From the NCBI RefSeq assembly GCF_014117445.1, contig NZ_CP059851.1, positions 3,026,501 through 3,090,500 on the forward strand: a DNA stretch of 64,000 nucleotides, given 5' to 3'. The number at the start of each line of letters is the position of its first letter. Position 1 is the stretch's first letter. Positions 810 through 40,093 of this stretch are shown here, in pieces. Made by a program: the position numbers and the translations under genes. The notes beneath the pieces are model-generated. The model saw only the letters and a list, made by a program, of their open reading frames with translations, searched no databases and had not been told where the DNA came from. The DNA is from Sandaracinobacteroides saxicola (GTDB lineage: Bacteria; Pseudomonadota; Alphaproteobacteria; Sphingomonadales; Sphingomonadaceae).

Positions 810-848
810 CCTTGATTCAGGCTGTCACTTTTTTCGACAAACCTTCCA
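810..848 (+). repeat. 39-bp direct repeat, copy 1
   Basis: Starts CCTTGATTCAGGCTGTCACT and continues through TTTTTTCGA. It matches 1041-1079 with two mismatches, 231 bp apart. Not recognised as a named element. Confidence 0.85.
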
Positions 849-29068: not shown

Positions 29069-30277
29069 ATGAACGACGTGAAAAAAGTGGTCCTCGCCTT
29101 CTCCGGCGGCCTCGACACCAGCGTCATCCTGAAATGGCTGCAAACCACCTACCAATGCGAGGTCGTCACCTTCACCGCCGACCTCGGCCAGGGCGAGGAG
29201 CTCGAACCCGCCCGCTCCAAGGCCCAGCTCATGGGCGTCAGGCAGATTTTCATCGACGACCTGCGCGAGGAGTTCGTCCGCGATTTCGTCTTCCCCATGA
29301 TGCGCGCCAACGCGCTGTACGAGGGCCTCTACCTGCTCGGCACCAGCATTGCCCGCCCCCTCATCGCCAAGCGCCAGATCGAAATCGCCCGCGAAGTCGG
29401 CGCCGACGCCGTCAGCCATGGCGCCACCGGCAAGGGCAATGACCAGGTGCGTTTCGAACTCGGCTATTACGCCCTCAACCCCGACATCAAGATCATCGCC
29501 CCCTGGCGCGAATGGGACCTGACCAGCCGCGAGGCCCTCATCGCCTTCGCCGAAGCGCACCAGATCCCGATCCCCCGGGACAAACGCGGCGAAAGCCCGT
29601 TCTCGACCGACGCCAACATCCTCCACACCTCGTCCGAAGGCAAGGTGCTCGAGGATCCGTGGGAAGAGGTGCCGGACTATGTCTATTCGCGCACCGTCAA
29701 CCCCGAGGATGCGCCGGACACGCCCGAATATATCACCCTCGATTTCGAACGCGGCGACGCCGTCGCCCTCAACGGCGAGGGCCACTCCCCCGCCACCCTG
29801 CTCGCCAAACTGAACGATCTCGGCCGCGCCCACGGCATCGGCCGGCTCGACCTCGTCGAAAACCGCTTCGTCGGCATGAAATCCCGCGGCATGTACGAAA
29901 CGCCCGGCGGCACCATCCTCCACATCGCCCACCGCGGCATCGAATCGATCACGCTCGACCGCGGCGCGGCGCACCTGAAGGACGAGCTGATGCCGCGCTA
30001 CGCCGAACTCATCTACAACGGCTTCTGGTTCGCCCCCGAACGGGAAATGCTCCAGGCCGCGATCGACCACAGCCAGGCGAAAGTCACCGGCACCGTCCGC
30101 CTGAAACTCTACAAGGGGCAGGCTTCGGTCGTCGGCCGCAAGTCACCGCACAGCCTCTACAGCCCCCGCATCGTCACCTTCGAGGATGACGCCGGCGCCT
30201 ATGACCAGCGCGATGCCAAGGGCTTCATCCGCCTGAACGCGCTCCGCCTGCGCCTGCTCGGCCAGCGCGACGCCTGA
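29069..30277 (+). CDS. argG: Argininosuccinate synthase
   Basis: 402 residues. [16 protein letters not shown] is the ATP pyrophosphatase P-loop, and [16 protein letters not shown] is the aspartate/citrulline region of the family. It condenses citrulline and aspartate, the penultimate step of arginine synthesis. Full length. Its last 53 bp overlap the 3' end of the PEP-CTERM gene on the opposite strand. Confidence 0.97.
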
Positions 30278-30917
30278 GCGCCGCGCCCACCAGGCCGAAA
30301 CCGGCGATCAGCATCGCCCAGGTCGCCGGCTCCGGCACCGGCGCGGAGCTGAAGGTCATGGTCACGCGGCCGCCCGCGGGGTTGTAGAAATAGGCCTCGC
30401 TGAACCCCATCGCCGTGGTCGCGCCCTGAAAACGCTCGGAGCAGATCCAGCCGGGAAACTGGACGCACTTGTCGATGGTCGTCGACAGCAGCGTATCGAA
30501 GGTCAGCGCGTCGGCGCTCACGGCACCGCCCACCGCCGACCCGTCGAACGTCAGGAAGGGCGGCGCCAGTCCCCAGGTCGCCGAAAGGGAGCCCGCGTCG
30601 ATCCACGTCGTGTTGCCCAGCATGTCGCCCGTCACCGGATCGCGGGCCGACCATCGCCACTCCGCCATCCAGCCGGCGGCGAAACCATAGCCCTCCGCCC
30701 CGGTGCCGGTCACCCGGGTCCGCCACCGCCCCGGCGCGAAGGTCGGCACATAGGTGAACGCCGGCGCGCACACGGTCGCACCCCCCGGCCCGTCGAAACA
30801 GTCGGCGGGATCCAGCACAAAGGAATAGTTGATCGTCTCCGCCCGGGCGACACCCGTCACCCCCAGCGCCACCGCCGACGCCAGCGCGCCCAACATGATA
30901 CCACGCAACCCGCCCAT
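30225..30917 (-). CDS. PEPxxWA-CTERM exported protein 1
   Basis: 230 residues from the ATG at 30917, which starts a signal peptide ([19 protein letters not shown]). The C-terminal sorting tail is [14 protein letters not shown] followed by a hydrophobic helix and arginines, the sphingomonad PEP-CTERM form cleaved by an exosortase. The middle is beta-rich with paired cysteines ([17 protein letters not shown]) and no recognised domain. The C-terminus runs into the argG 3' end, adding an unusual Gly/Arg-rich tail after the arginines. Confidence 0.85.
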
Positions 30918-31130
30918 TACGCCCTCCACAGCAACCCAGACATCAAGGAACATCATTAACTATTGGAACAATATCATTGTCAATACTTTCCGCGCCGTGA
31001 ATCATGAAGAAATCATGAAGACACGCTGTTAACCATGTCATGCGCAACAGCTGTCGGCTTTATTTACAGCCGTGCATCGGCTCCAAACAGAAATGGCAGG
31101 GAATCAAGTGCCTTGAGACGGGTACGCGTT

Positions 31131-31146
31131 TGGCACGGCGCTTGCA
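31131..31146 (+). promoter_or_regulatory. Sigma-54 (RpoN) promoter upstream of a PEP-CTERM gene
   Basis: TGGCACG-GCGC-TTGCA matches the consensus TGGCACG-N4-TTGCW at every fixed position, with 10 bp between the -24 GG (31132-31133) and -12 GC (31144-31145). It lies 57 bp before the ATG at 31203. Other PEP-CTERM systems are driven by RpoN with the PrsK/PrsR pair. Confidence 0.8.
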
Positions 31147-31202
31147 TGGATGTGCAATGACAGCAGCGGTGTCGGAGCCAGCTGCAAACAAAGGAGTGTG
31201 TC

Positions 31203-31904
31203 ATGCGGGTTCTGGGTCTTGGTGCGTCATTGCTGCTGCTCATGGCAGCGCCCGTTTCGGCAACGGTGATCTTCGCCGACAATTTCGACGGCGAAGGCGC
31301 CCCCGGCGCCAATATCCTGAACTACAACAGCTTCGCCAACTGGACCGTGACCACGGGCAATGTCGATCTGGTCGCCCAGGTCAACCCCTATGGCATCGGC
31401 AGCTGCCCGGGCAAGTGCGTGGACCTCGCCGGCACGCCGGGGCCGGGGGCCATCACCTCCAAGCCGATCTTCTTCAGCGCCGGCAACCGCGTGGACGTGT
31501 CGTTCCAGCTGTCGGGCAACCAGCGCACCGGCTCGGTCGACGATTTCGCCTTCAACCTCACCTTCAACCAGCCCACGTCGGGCTGCTGCCTGGGCGTCGA
31601 CTCCGGGCCGGCCACCTTTGATTTCCCGGCCTGGCTCAACATCCTGAACCAGGTTGGCCCCTACACCGAAAGCGTCGCCGGTGGCCGCCCGTTCGTCACC
31701 TACTCGGCCTGGTTCATCGCCAGCCAGTCCGGCAGCTTCCAGCTCAGCTTCGCCGGCACCGGGACCGGCAACGCCAACATCGGCCCCATCCTCGATAACG
31801 TGCTGGTCAGCCAGGTGCCCGAACCCGCCACCTGGGCCATGCTGATCGCCGGCTTCGGCATGGTCGGCTTCGCCCTGCGCCGCCGCAGCGCGCTGGCGGC
31901 CTGA
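31203..31904 (+). CDS. PEPxxWA-CTERM exported protein 2
   Basis: 233 residues with a signal peptide ending around APVSA and a C-terminal [14 protein letters not shown] helix-arginine tail. The body starts VIFADNFDGEGA and is beta-sandwich-like, resembling carbohydrate-binding or lectin-type PEP-CTERM proteins; PFVTYSAWFIASQSGSFQLS fits that. A ribosome-binding site (AAAGGAG) sits just upstream, and a consensus sigma-54 promoter 57 bp upstream. Monocistronic with its own terminator. Confidence 0.9.
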   Translation: MRVLGLGASLLLLMAAPVSATVIFADNFDGEGAPGANILNYNSFANWTVTTGNVDLVAQVNPYGIGSCPGKCVDLAGTPGPGAITSKPIFFSAGNRVDVSFQLSGNQRTGSVDDFAFNLTFNQPTSGCCLGVDSGPATFDFPAWLNILNQVGPYTESVAGGRPFVTYSAWFIASQSGSFQLSFAGTGTGNANIGPILDNVLVSQVPEPATWAMLIAGFGMVGFALRRRSALAA

Positions 31905-31919
31905 CCCCTTTCGTCACGG

Positions 31920-31954
31920 AAAAAGCGGCGCGGGCACCCCCCGCGCCGCTTTTT
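31920..31954 (+). terminator. Rho-independent terminator
   Basis: AAAAAGCGGCGCGGG pairs with CCCGCGCCGCTTTTT over 15 bp around a 5-nt loop, with a T-tract. Ends the sigma-54-driven PEP-CTERM transcript. Confidence 0.93.
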
Positions 31955-32002
31955 TCATGCCCGGGTTTGCCTGCAACGCCATCCGCGCGTTAAGGTCACA
32001 CG

Positions 32003-35463: not shown

Positions 35464-36654
35464 ATGCGTATGCGTCTTTATGGGGCGGCTCTGGCGGCTC
35501 TGGTCGCCGCCTCCACCCCGGCCCACGCCTTGAAGATCGTCCTCGTCGATACCGGCGGCGTGAAGGGCTCGCCCGCCGGCGCCGGCTTCAGCGCCGCCGC
35601 ACGCTATTGGGAAAGCGTCATCACCAACGATGTCACGCTGCGCCTGAACGTCGGCTTCGAGGATCTCGGCCCCAACGTGCTCGGCGCCACCGGCAGCACG
35701 CTCACCACCCGCGGCGTCCAGTTCGTGCAGAACCGCATCGATGCGCAGCGCAGCAGCTCGGCCGTCGACAGCACCATCCACGCCGTCGGCCGCGCCCCGC
35801 TCACCCCTGGCCAGCTCGGCATCGGCGCGCTGGATGTCGTCACCCCCGGCTATGTCGACCCGGTCGACCAGCTCGGCATCGACAATGCCGGCGCCGTGCT
35901 CGACACCGACGGCTCCTTCAACAACAGCGTCATCGCGCTCAGCACCGCCAACGCCAAGGCGATCGGCTATGTCTTCGATCCGCTCCAGGCGGATGCCAAC
36001 ATCACCTTCAGCTCCACCTTCCCCTTCGATTTCAACCCGAAGGACGGCATCGACACCGGCGCCTATGATTTCATCGGCGTCGCCATCCACGAAATCGGCC
36101 ACGCCCTCGGCTTCCTCAGCGGCGCCGACGATTATGATTTCCTCGGCTGCCCGAACGGCCCCGGCTGCGCCGCCTTCGCGGACTACCCGGTGAACGACGA
36201 CTGGTGGGGCTACACGCTCGACCTCTACCGCTACGGCAGGAGCTTTGATGGCCAGGCCCGGCTGGACTGGCGCCCCGGCGTCGAATCCTATTTCTCGATC
36301 GATGGTGGCGCGTCCGACGTCGGCCGCCTCGCGGAGGGCTCCTTCCACGGCGCCGCCGGCGACCAGGCCTCGCATTGGTTCGCCCCCACCCAGTCGCCCT
36401 TCTGCAGCGGGCTTCAGGGCATCATGAACCCCTATATCTGCAGCCGCACGCCGGCCATCGTCACGTCGAAGGACCTGACCGTGATGGACGCCATCGGCTG
36501 GAACCTGACGGACGAGGCGCAGAACGCCAATTATGTCCTGCCCACCAGCGCGCTCGCCTATGTGCCGGAACCGGCCACCTGGGCGATGATGATCGTCGGC
36601 TTCGGCCTGGTCGGCAGCACGATGCGCCGCCGCCGCCCCGCCGTCAGCGCCTGA
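35464..36654 (+). CDS. PEP-CTERM metalloprotease
   Basis: 396 residues: signal peptide ending about AHA, a zinc-metalloprotease domain and a [14 protein letters not shown] sorting tail. The zinc motif HEIGHALG is at residues 209-216; the expected third ligand after GFLSG is Asp (ADD) rather than His. This matches the PEP-CTERM metalloproteases classed in NCBI as NF038122 (from memory). Probably surface-anchored and able to process other exported proteins. A GGGAG ribosome-binding site lies upstream. Confidence 0.88.
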   Translation: MRMRLYGAALAALVAASTPAHALKIVLVDTGGVKGSPAGAGFSAAARYWESVITNDVTLRLNVGFEDLGPNVLGATGSTLTTRGVQFVQNRIDAQRSSSAVDSTIHAVGRAPLTPGQLGIGALDVVTPGYVDPVDQLGIDNAGAVLDTDGSFNNSVIALSTANAKAIGYVFDPLQADANITFSSTFPFDFNPKDGIDTGAYDFIGVAIHEIGHALGFLSGADDYDFLGCPNGPGCAAFADYPVNDDWWGYTLDLYRYGRSFDGQARLDWRPGVESYFSIDGGASDVGRLAEGSFHGAAGDQASHWFAPTQSPFCSGLQGIMNPYICSRTPAIVTSKDLTVMDAIGWNLTDEAQNANYVLPTSALAYVPEPATWAMMIVGFGLVGSTMRRRRPAVSA

Positions 36655-36723: not shown

Positions 36724-37098
36724 TCAACCGCAGCGGTGCAGCTTCACCCGCCGTCCGGCCTGCATCCGGTATTCGGTCGCGGCGCCGCCCGCTTCCCGCA
36801 CGGTCAGTGTCATCCAGCCATCGGCGATCCGGCCGCTGAACCGCGCATTGTCCCGCAGCTGCTGGTCCCCCGGCGCGGGCCCCGGCGCATCCCGCACATG
36901 CAGGCCGCCGGCGCTGAACCGGCCGTCGCCATCCGGGGACAGCGCGCCACGGATCACACCGCTCGCGCAATCCGCGCTCAGCACCGCGCCATCGGCCGTC
37001 ACACGCAGCATCACCCCGTCGCCCCCCCAGTCACCGGGGGGCAGCGGCGCGGCGGCGACCATCATCGCCGCCACCAGGATGATCTCAGCTGACGACAA
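36724..37098 (-). CDS. Hypothetical exported protein
   Basis: 124 residues from a TTG at 37098; alternative starts are GTG at 37074 or ATG at 37065. The N-terminus (IILVAAMMVAAAPLPP) is a weak signal peptide. Two cysteines (ADCASG, LHRCG) could form one disulfide. Body of short beta strands. The start overlaps the 3' end of the PEP-CTERM gene by 14 bp, which supports co-translation and the TTG start. Family unknown. Confidence 0.6.
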   Translation of the reverse strand: MSSAEIILVAAMMVAAAPLPPGDWGGDGVMLRVTADGAVLSADCASGVIRGALSPDGDGRFSAGGLHVRDAPGPAPGDQQLRDNARFSGRIADGWMTLTVREAGGAATEYRMQAGRRVKLHRCG

Positions 37099-38749
37099 CC
37101 GCCGGGCGCCGCCGCCGCACGCTCGCCCCGATCAGCCCGAAGCCCAGGATGAACATCGCCCAGGTCTGCGGCTCGGGCACACCGCCCACGCTCAGCCCGG
37201 CGATATAGGTGCCCCAGCGCGAGCCACCGGTGCCGTTCGGATGGCCGAACTGCGGCAGGTTATACTCCCGCGCAAAGCCGCCCTGCACCCAGAAACCATG
37301 TGGATCCAGCGGATCAAGGCTGACCGACGAATAATCTTGCCAGCGCTGCCGCCCCGCCGCGGGCTGCCCGAAGATGCTGCCATTGTGATAATCATCCGTC
37401 AGGCTCACCTTCAGCACATGCTCGCTGCCCTTCTGCACCAGCGTGCCGTCGGCCTGCGTGTGGAACACCCGCGCCAGCAGCGTGATGCGCCCGTCGGTCG
37501 GGTTCAGGCCAGAGCGGTTGTAGCCGATCACCACCTGCCCCAGCCTGTTCACCGCCAGCGAGCCCTGGTAATAGTCATAGCCCGCCTCGCCGATCTCGCC
37601 CTCGTCCAGCACCGCGTTGGTCGCCTGGTCGATGACATAGTAACGCACCCGCGTCTCATCCTGGCCCACCGGCGTGATGGTGTGCACACCATAGAGTTTG
37701 CCGTCATATTCATACACCGAACTGCCGATGCGGTCGTCCAGCGTGTCGATGATCCGCTGGTTCGCCGCGATCGCCGCCGGTTGCCGCCCCGGGCTGTTGA
37801 AGGTGTAGGTGGAGCCGACATCCACGCCCGCCGTGCGCACATCCGCGCCGGTGCCGGCGTTCAGCACATCATAGCGGCTGACCGCAAAGTCGTTGATCGA
37901 CACCGCCATGATGTTGCCGGTCGAGCTGTTCTCCCGGCTGTTCACCCCCTGGATGGCGAACCCCCGCGTGAAATCATTGGTCGGGCTGCCCGACACGAAC
38001 GGCGTCACGAAGGCCTGGCGGTTCGCCGCCGTCGGCGCGGCGCCGAACAGGTCGCCCAGCGGAATGACGTTCAGCGTCGTGCCGCGGAAACTGCGCGTGC
38101 CCCCCGGCGTCGCCGCGCCGAAATCATTGGTGCCGATGTACACCGCGTTGCGATCGATCGCGAGCGTCGGATAATCCGCGATCGGCGCGAAGAAGCCGCC
38201 GTTGAACCCCTCGAACTGCGTCACCTTGTACGGCCCCAGCGCGTTGCTGGTCTGCGACACCGCGATCTGGATGTCCTTCGCATTGGCGCCAAAGCCGATG
38301 ACGATCCAGCGGTTCGCCATCTCATTGTACATCACCCGCTGGTCGCCGCTGGACCCGGCCTGCCCCAGCCCCTGCCAGAAGGCATTGTCCGACACCAGGC
38401 TGGTGCGAACGCCCGTCGCCTTGTCATAAACGGCGATGCCGCCGTTCGTCGTCTGCATGATCTGCGTCCGGCCGGCGGCCGCGATCCCGTCCGAGGGGAT
38501 GAAGTTCCGCCCCAGCGCGGCGCCATCATATTGGCTGATGCCCTCGAAGCCCAGGAACACCGGGTTCGGCCCGGCCATCGGCGTGGCGCGACCATTGTTG
38601 TCGAACGAAATGTCGCCCGGAATCGGCGTCAGCCCCGGCTTCTTGAACTCATAGCCCGGCTTGATCTCGTTGCCCCCCGGCACCCAGGCCTGGGCCGCGC
38701 CCGAAATCGCCAGCATCGAACCCGCGAGAATAAGTTTCCGCACGATCAT
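37085..38749 (-). CDS. PEPxxWA-CTERM exported protein 4 (large)
   Basis: 554 residues from the ATG at 38749, with a signal peptide (MIVRKLILAGSMLAISGAAQA) and a PEPQTWAMFILGFG tail. The body has no domain I can name; repeated aromatic and Asn/Asp-rich stretches (SVYEYDGKLYGVHTITPVG, FSNNGR) suggest a beta-propeller-like surface protein. A short exported protein follows it on the same strand. Confidence 0.85.
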   Translation of the reverse strand: MIVRKLILAGSMLAISGAAQAWVPGGNEIKPGYEFKKPGLTPIPGDISFDNNGRATPMAGPNPVFLGFEGISQYDGAALGRNFIPSDGIAAAGRTQIMQTTNGGIAVYDKATGVRTSLVSDNAFWQGLGQAGSSGDQRVMYNEMANRWIVIGFGANAKDIQIAVSQTSNALGPYKVTQFEGFNGGFFAPIADYPTLAIDRNAVYIGTNDFGAATPGGTRSFRGTTLNVIPLGDLFGAAPTAANRQAFVTPFVSGSPTNDFTRGFAIQGVNSRENSSTGNIMAVSINDFAVSRYDVLNAGTGADVRTAGVDVGSTYTFNSPGRQPAAIAANQRIIDTLDDRIGSSVYEYDGKLYGVHTITPVGQDETRVRYYVIDQATNAVLDEGEIGEAGYDYYQGSLAVNRLGQVVIGYNRSGLNPTDGRITLLARVFHTQADGTLVQKGSEHVLKVSLTDDYHNGSIFGQPAAGRQRWQDYSSVSLDPLDPHGFWVQGGFAREYNLPQFGHPNGTGGSRWGTYIAGLSVGGVPEPQTWAMFILGFGLIGASVRRRRPAVVVS

Positions 38750-39328: not shown

Positions 39329-40093
39329 CTATCGTTGCACCGCGCGGACCCTTCGGCGTGCGGCGGCCCCCACCAGCCCGAACCCGGCGATCATCATCGC
39401 CCAGCTCGCGGGTTCGGGCACCAGTGAGATCGGGGTCACCTGTACCTGCGGGTTCAACATGCTGAACGTCACCCCCGGCAGCGTCGTCACCTGCGCCCCG
39501 CTGGTCGGCACGCCCCGGCGGAAATTGAACGCGAAGAAGGTGCCCACCCCCTGCTGCGGCGCAAACACCGCGCCCAGGTCGGGAAAGGCGCTGCCATTGA
39601 TCAGCGTCGGCGCTGGTGCCACCACCGACCGCCCGAAATTGAAGCTCGACAGGAAAACATCCGCCGGCAGCGGCGCCGTCGTCGCCAGGTGCGGCAGGAA
39701 CCCCGGCCCAAAGCTGAAGCCATAGGACAGGCTGAACTGGTCGAAGCGCAGGGTCGGCGGCAGCGACGGCGGCGCGCCATTGTCATAGACGAAGGCGCTG
39801 TGCATCGCATTGCCGGTCGCGGTCACGCCATAGCCGCCTACGCTGATGCCGAACCCCACCACCGCGAACGGATACATGGTGGCCGTGCCCTGCCCGCCTA
39901 TCGGCGGCAGGGTCACCGGCGCCACCGCGCCGTTGATGATGAAACCCGCCTGCGCATATTGCCCGCCAAAGGGCACGCCCGTCACCGGGCCTGCGCCATT
40001 GTTCAGGAATCCCTGCACCGTCACCAGCCAGGCCGCGGCATCCGCCTGTGCCGCCCCTGTCAGCAGCACCGCCGCCAGCATCACCTTCCGCAT
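39329..40093 (-). CDS. PEPxxWA-CTERM exported protein 5
   Basis: 254 residues from the ATG at 40093 (a TTG at 40099 is also open). Signal peptide MRKVMLAAVLLTGAAQADA and a C-terminal PEPASWAMMIAGFG tail. The body is Gly/Pro-rich and beta-rich (GGQYAQAGFIINGAVAPVTL) with no recognised domain; there are no cysteines. Function unknown; likely an exosortase substrate. Confidence 0.85.
   Translation of the reverse strand: MRKVMLAAVLLTGAAQADAAAWLVTVQGFLNNGAGPVTGVPFGGQYAQAGFIINGAVAPVTLPPIGGQGTATMYPFAVVGFGISVGGYGVTATGNAMHSAFVYDNGAPPSLPPTLRFDQFSLSYGFSFGPGFLPHLATTAPLPADVFLSSFNFGRSVVAPAPTLINGSAFPDLGAVFAPQQGVGTFFAFNFRRGVPTSGAQVTTLPGVTFSMLNPQVQVTPISLVPEPASWAMMIAGFGLVGAAARRRVRAVQR

Follow-up and report, generated by a model that had tools for sequence, protein, structure and literature searches.

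Control of PEP-CTERM genes by a sigma-54/PrsK/PrsR promoter was predicted by Haft et al. in 2006 (PMC1569441), who described a 17-nt motif ending in TTTACA, followed by a spacer and a sigma-54 motif, before 99 of 167 PEP-CTERM genes of 13 proteobacterial species. The spacers had a mean length of 62.8 nt (SD 10.6, range 32-92), the mean distance to the start was 71 nt, and the motif was linked to PrsR, PrsK and PrsT. In Aquincola tertiaricarbonis, transcription of pepA was found to depend on RpoN1 and its start was mapped to a -24/-12 promoter (PMC9850573), and a PrsR-type regulator of Desulfovibrio vulgaris bound its five predicted PEP-CTERM targets (PMC3333781). Because of these precedents, the kind of promoter considered here is already known. 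Loop lengths of the LuxO/sigma-54 enhancers of Vibrio qrr genes have been reported to group at intervals of about 11 bp (PMC4740811).

The window, i.e. the whole stretch of 64 kb that was analysed, contains at positions 31052-31146 what is, judging from its sequence features, very probably an enhancer-dependent sigma-54 promoter of the PrsK/PrsR regulon. The elements concerned are the following:

31052-31069, + strand: PrsR-type activator box (UAS) TGTCGGCTTTATTTACAG, an exact match to TGTCGG-N6-TKACA.
31102-31114, + strand: weak IHF-like site AATCAAGTGCCTT, with 2 mismatches to WATCAAN4TTR, from a scan of the spacer.
31131-31146, + strand: -24/-12 sigma-54 promoter TGGCACGGCGCTTGCA, an exact match to TGGCACG-N4-TTGCA.
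31157 (plus or minus 2), + strand: predicted transcription start, placed from the -12 GC at 31144-31145.
31190-31196, + strand: ribosome-binding site AAAGGAG, read from the sequence.
31203-31904, + strand: PEP-CTERM gene (NF035944, TIGR02595) of 233 aa with a signal peptide-like start and a PEPxxWA-CTERM tail.
31918-31956, + strand: terminator-like hairpin and U tract 3' of the stop codon (fold -32.3 kcal/mol, z -5.7).
30225-30956, - strand: divergent PEP-CTERM gene sharing the intergenic region with 31203 and lacking a sigma-54 site of its own (family search and upstream scan).
37085-38749, - strand: sixth PEP-CTERM gene of the window (family search).

The initial annotation had described a consensus sigma-54 site with exact 10-bp spacing before a PEP-CTERM gene, and this was confirmed, since GG (31132-31133) and GC (31144-31145) are separated by ten bases; the location upstream of the ATG at 31203 was likewise correct, but the distance from the end of the site is 56 nt instead of 57. 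Within the window this exact match to TGGCACG-N4-TTGCA is unique. Looser matching brings no enrichment, with 3 sites at up to two mismatches in the window against 8.7 expected, and the pattern with two mismatches shows no excess in the whole genome (455 against 442 for the reversed pattern), so that within the window the exact site alone counts as evidence. PEP-CTERM genes of the genome were then considered together: of 65 family matches the five weakest were dropped and 60 were used (59 above cut-off and one below), two of them with less than 450 nt of upstream sequence and three with doubtful-looking starts (2878271, 1210315, 1738764) among those chosen by script. For 12 of these 60 genes a sigma-54 site with a score of 10 or more was found 25-70 nt before the predicted start, compared with a mean of 0.03 and a maximum of 1 in 200 shuffles. 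The absence of enrichment of the loose pattern in window and genome would suit a chance consensus match, but this recurrence, together with an exact site in the right place, on the right strand and with a box at the published distance, makes such a coincidence hardly credible.

The product of 31203-31904 scored 53.5 bits against NF035944 (cut-off 35) and 21.9 against TIGR02595 (cut-off 16), its remaining family matches being below cut-off. The gene is probably monocistronic, as the stop codon is followed by the strong hairpin and U tract; a simple terminator scan reported no terminator for it. The window holds six PEP-CTERM genes, each above the cut-off of NF035944 (PEPxxWA-CTERM). No comparable sigma-54 site was found within 450 nt of the other five, the best candidate being TGGCGCGGATCGTGCC, which lacks a box and lies 68 nt upstream of the start at 40093. 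The earlier statement that the remaining genes lack such a site thus stands, but they number five and not four. Another of these PEP-CTERM genes (35470-36651, + strand) encodes a metalloprotease of family NF038122 (252.9 bits, cut-off 80). A 17-mer at 823-839 (- strand), TGTCGAAAAAAGTGACA, recurs identically at a minimum of seven listed genomic positions, and the three other copies inspected have flanks resembling its own. It belongs to a dispersed repeat about 100 nt long or longer, whose positions show no relation to PEP-CTERM promoters.

The three genes that the initial annotation had proposed to look for are all present. Profile search of the genome returned a single rpoN (404 bits), one PrsR (649 bits, cut-off 502.6) and, directly adjoining it, PrsK (571 bits, cut-off 300). 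The sequences of PrsR and RpoN contain GAFTGA and ARRTVTKYR, respectively, which we take to be characteristic motifs of these proteins. Absence of an RpoN or PrsR homologue would have argued against the assignment; both genes were found, as was a PrsR-type box at the published distance. An IHF-alpha gene with an intact frame scored just above cut-off. The genome carries 59 PEP-CTERM genes above cut-off and an exosortase (TIGR02602, 2357094-2357813) that NF035943 assigns to type XrtV (378.6 bits, cut-off 313), accompanied by a V-type EpsI. The exosortase locus (2353295-2362482) includes EpsI, a sugar transferase and export genes. At its edge is a PEP-CTERM gene whose composite promoter lies 193 nt upstream of the chosen start, and no further composite was detected in the locus.

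Comparison of upstream regions revealed a TGTCGG-N6-TTTACAG box preceding the sigma-54 sites. At 31203 the box (31052-31069) is separated from the sigma-54 site by a 61-nt spacer and corresponds to motif 1 of Haft et al., which ends in TTTACA (by comparison of the text rather than of the logo). Its half-sites are imperfectly symmetric. Those at one homologue of gene 31203 (L150; 46% identity, same promoter) form a perfect dyad, TGTCAAAAGATTTGACAG. Dyad half-sites are expected for a dimeric activator of the Fis type. When all PEP-CTERM genes were scanned, as had been suggested at the outset, the composite of box and sigma-54 site was found before 13 of the 60, against a mean of 0.5 and a maximum of 3 in 100 dinucleotide shuffles and 1 in the reverse complement, and gene 31203 had the top-scoring pair; this count is partly circular because consensus and score of the box were derived from the same promoters. 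The sigma-54 enrichment and the cross-genome tests are the only lines of evidence that do not depend on the box score. The 13 composites are a lower bound, since a box with a score of 9 or more, on one strand or the other, precedes 6 of the remaining 47 genes; among the six is the divergent gene 30225-30956, which shares box 31052-31069. A search for common motifs before the 47 genes gave mostly GC-rich top words, little above shuffles, and ribosome-site words. The view that 31203 is the regulated gene of its set therefore holds within the window, where none of the other five PEP-CTERM genes has a comparable site, but the gene is one of at least 13 among the 59 above cut-off genome-wide and not the only such gene.

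Gene 31203 could alternatively be read mainly from a sigma-70 promoter, the sigma-54 site being minor or idle. A sigma-70-like pair, TTGTCA-17-AATCAT, does exist at 30977-31005 (+ strand), and the region has 2 such sites compared with 0.2 in shuffles. However, the pair has 9 of 12 consensus bases and lies about 200 nt upstream of the start, and the combination of box and sigma-54 site recurs at other PEP-CTERM promoters, which leaves this alternative very unlikely.

Near-perfect sites were also sought independently of PEP-CTERM genes. The pattern TGGCAY-N5-TTGCW gave 18 matches on the 3.36-Mb chromosome and 2 for its reversed form. Of the 18, eleven lie upstream of PEP-CTERM genes and one (2604632-2604647, - strand) upstream of glnB-glnA, a classical sigma-54 target (glnA was identified by family search, glnB by eye). 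At another (1113080-1113163, - strand) a PrsR-type composite stands before a 53-aa ORF with a single membrane span and without family match, adjoining a decarboxylase associated with the exosortase A system (TIGR03099); this ORF is a possible regulon member outside the PEP-CTERM genes. The other five (40498, 45573, 289418, 675805 and 1644928), located inside or directed against open frames, were discarded on visual inspection and are probably due to chance. At 2937914 a match to the composite pattern was noted, with no PEP-CTERM gene seen.

Distribution of the composite was also analysed among 197 genomes of the order. The strict pattern gave 168 matches in 59 genomes, and 3 when reversed. With PrsR called at E <=1e-150 (155 of 197 genomes), the composite occurred in 55 of 155 PrsR-positive and 4 of 42 PrsR-negative genomes (Fisher p 0.001), one of these four (G099) having 3 matches. 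In the other 100 PrsR-positive genomes, which gave no strict-pattern match, targets may be few or sites may vary. Six sites inspected in six other genomes all precede a gene with a PEP-CTERM tail. A core EPS target in relatives had been suspected from the single sites present in many genomes, and the idea was dropped because of these six. Among 22 loci with homologues of gene 31203, chosen from 80 fetched, a convincing composite was found in 3 (L179, L182 and L225). A looser scan of 80 named loci has a real false rate, since it gave 15 composites but also 5 when the sequence was reversed; all 15 share the strand of their PEP-CTERM gene. Five relatives (L290, L291, L292, L295 and L296) have a box-promoter spacer of 54 nt, in which GTTAA(C)C or GTTAATC is found some 30 nt upstream of the sigma-54 site.

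These data also bear on the identity of the activator. The sigma-54 promoter could be genuine and respond to another enhancer-binding protein, such as NtrC, and four further loci of the genome do match the PrsR model at 237-355 bits, as expected for NtrC-type activators. Against this, the box is common to 12 other PEP-CTERM promoters and fits the PrsR-linked box of Haft et al., the sigma-54 site of glnB-glnA has no TGTCGG box in the 130 nt upstream, and the composite tracks PrsR across the order. Activation by PrsR is thus the preferred reading, and control by another enhancer-binding protein appears unlikely.

Binding, looping, activation, transcript start and role of the protein are inferred, and the following course of events may be proposed. 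Phosphorylated PrsR, an NtrC-type activator, would bind its dyad box (TGTCGG-N6-TTTACAG, 31052-31069); the spacer of 61 nt would loop, possibly with the help of IHF, and PrsR would remodel the sigma-54 RNA polymerase waiting at 31131-31146. A short monocistronic transcript starting near 31157 would then yield the PEP-CTERM protein, which the exosortase XrtV would sort.

The consensus of IHF is WATCAA-N4-TTR. Taken singly, the IHF-like site of the promoter of 31203 is within chance. For the set of 13 own-genome spacers, 10 contain an IHF-like site with at most one mismatch compared with 0.7 in shuffles, while 10 of 46 spacers from elsewhere do so compared with 3.5 (maximum 9), these shuffles preserving base composition only. 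A role of IHF is likely for the own promoters as a set and possible for that of 31203, and IHF is reported to help looping at sigma-54 promoters (PMC7057263). An IHF-like site among PEP-CTERM promoters was not found in print in the open-licence literature.

The most interesting product of the analysis concerns the distance between box and promoter, measured from the end of TKACA to TGGC, which appears to step by about one helical turn. Among the 150 listed of the 168 matches, 146 have spacers of 50-55, 61-66 or 72-77 nt, three bands that were drawn after the data had been seen and among relatives that are not independent; of the other four, three fall in the gaps (56-60, 67-71) and one is at 47. 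The 150 include some sites that are probably due to chance, and one promoter (G158) enters the count twice. Similar fits (R 0.67-0.75) were obtained with periods of 10 to 12. The steps are seen separately in family groups f8 (n=66, R 0.75), f7 (n=12, R 0.77) and f4 (n=11, R 0.75), as well as in f1 without the genome of the window (n=45, R 0.72), and with one count per genus and distance, the rest of the window's family forming one group, R was 0.61 (n=72). In the own genome, the 13 spacers following the 18-nt box, found with an allowed range of 30-95 nt, are 50, 51, 51, 51, 52, 61, 61, 63, 63, 71, 73, 73 and 73, giving R 0.87 at a period of 10.5; none of 20,000 uniform draws reached this value. 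A requirement for one face of the helix would be in keeping with so short an activator loop. It seems somewhat more probable than not that PrsR promoters of the order are helically phased enhancers, with the box on one DNA face relative to the sigma-54 site at whole-turn distances (about 42, 52, 63 and 74 nt) and IHF bending the loop in part, and that PEP-CTERM genes of one genome comprise a PrsR class (about one fifth here) and a second, larger class that is controlled in another way. No report of helical steps at PEP-CTERM promoters was found in the open-licence literature, and neither these nor an IHF-like site appeared in section 7 of Haft et al. (PMC1569441) or in a word search of that paper. 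The steps offer a sharp and cheap test of PrsR as activator.

For a single gene, the promoter of 31203 is ordinary, a well-formed member of a known regulon. What is gained is that the 2006 prediction from 13 proteobacterial species is turned into an explicit set of 13 promoters from a single complete genome of the order, with more than 40 PEP-CTERM genes lacking the promoter as matched internal controls. As in the system described by Haft et al. (PMC1569441), a motif ending in TTTACA is followed by a spacer (61 nt), a sigma-54 motif and a start 56 nt further on, in a single-gene unit of a genome with PrsK and PrsR. Unlike that system, the exosortase is XrtV, and the composite is present at 13 of 59 above-cut-off genes compared with 99 of 167. 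Aquincola pepA (PMC9850573) is likewise a PEP-CTERM gene with a -24/-12 promoter (TGGCAC...CTGCTT), its upstream enhancer being predicted; RpoN1 dependence and the start were measured there, and their counterparts at 31203 are predicted. The product of 31203 matches the floc_PepA model weakly and through its tail (24.7 bits, cut-off 80). Finally, the Vibrio qrr enhancers (PMC4740811) differ in activator and genes, and their loops of about 80-120 bp compare with about 50-76 here.
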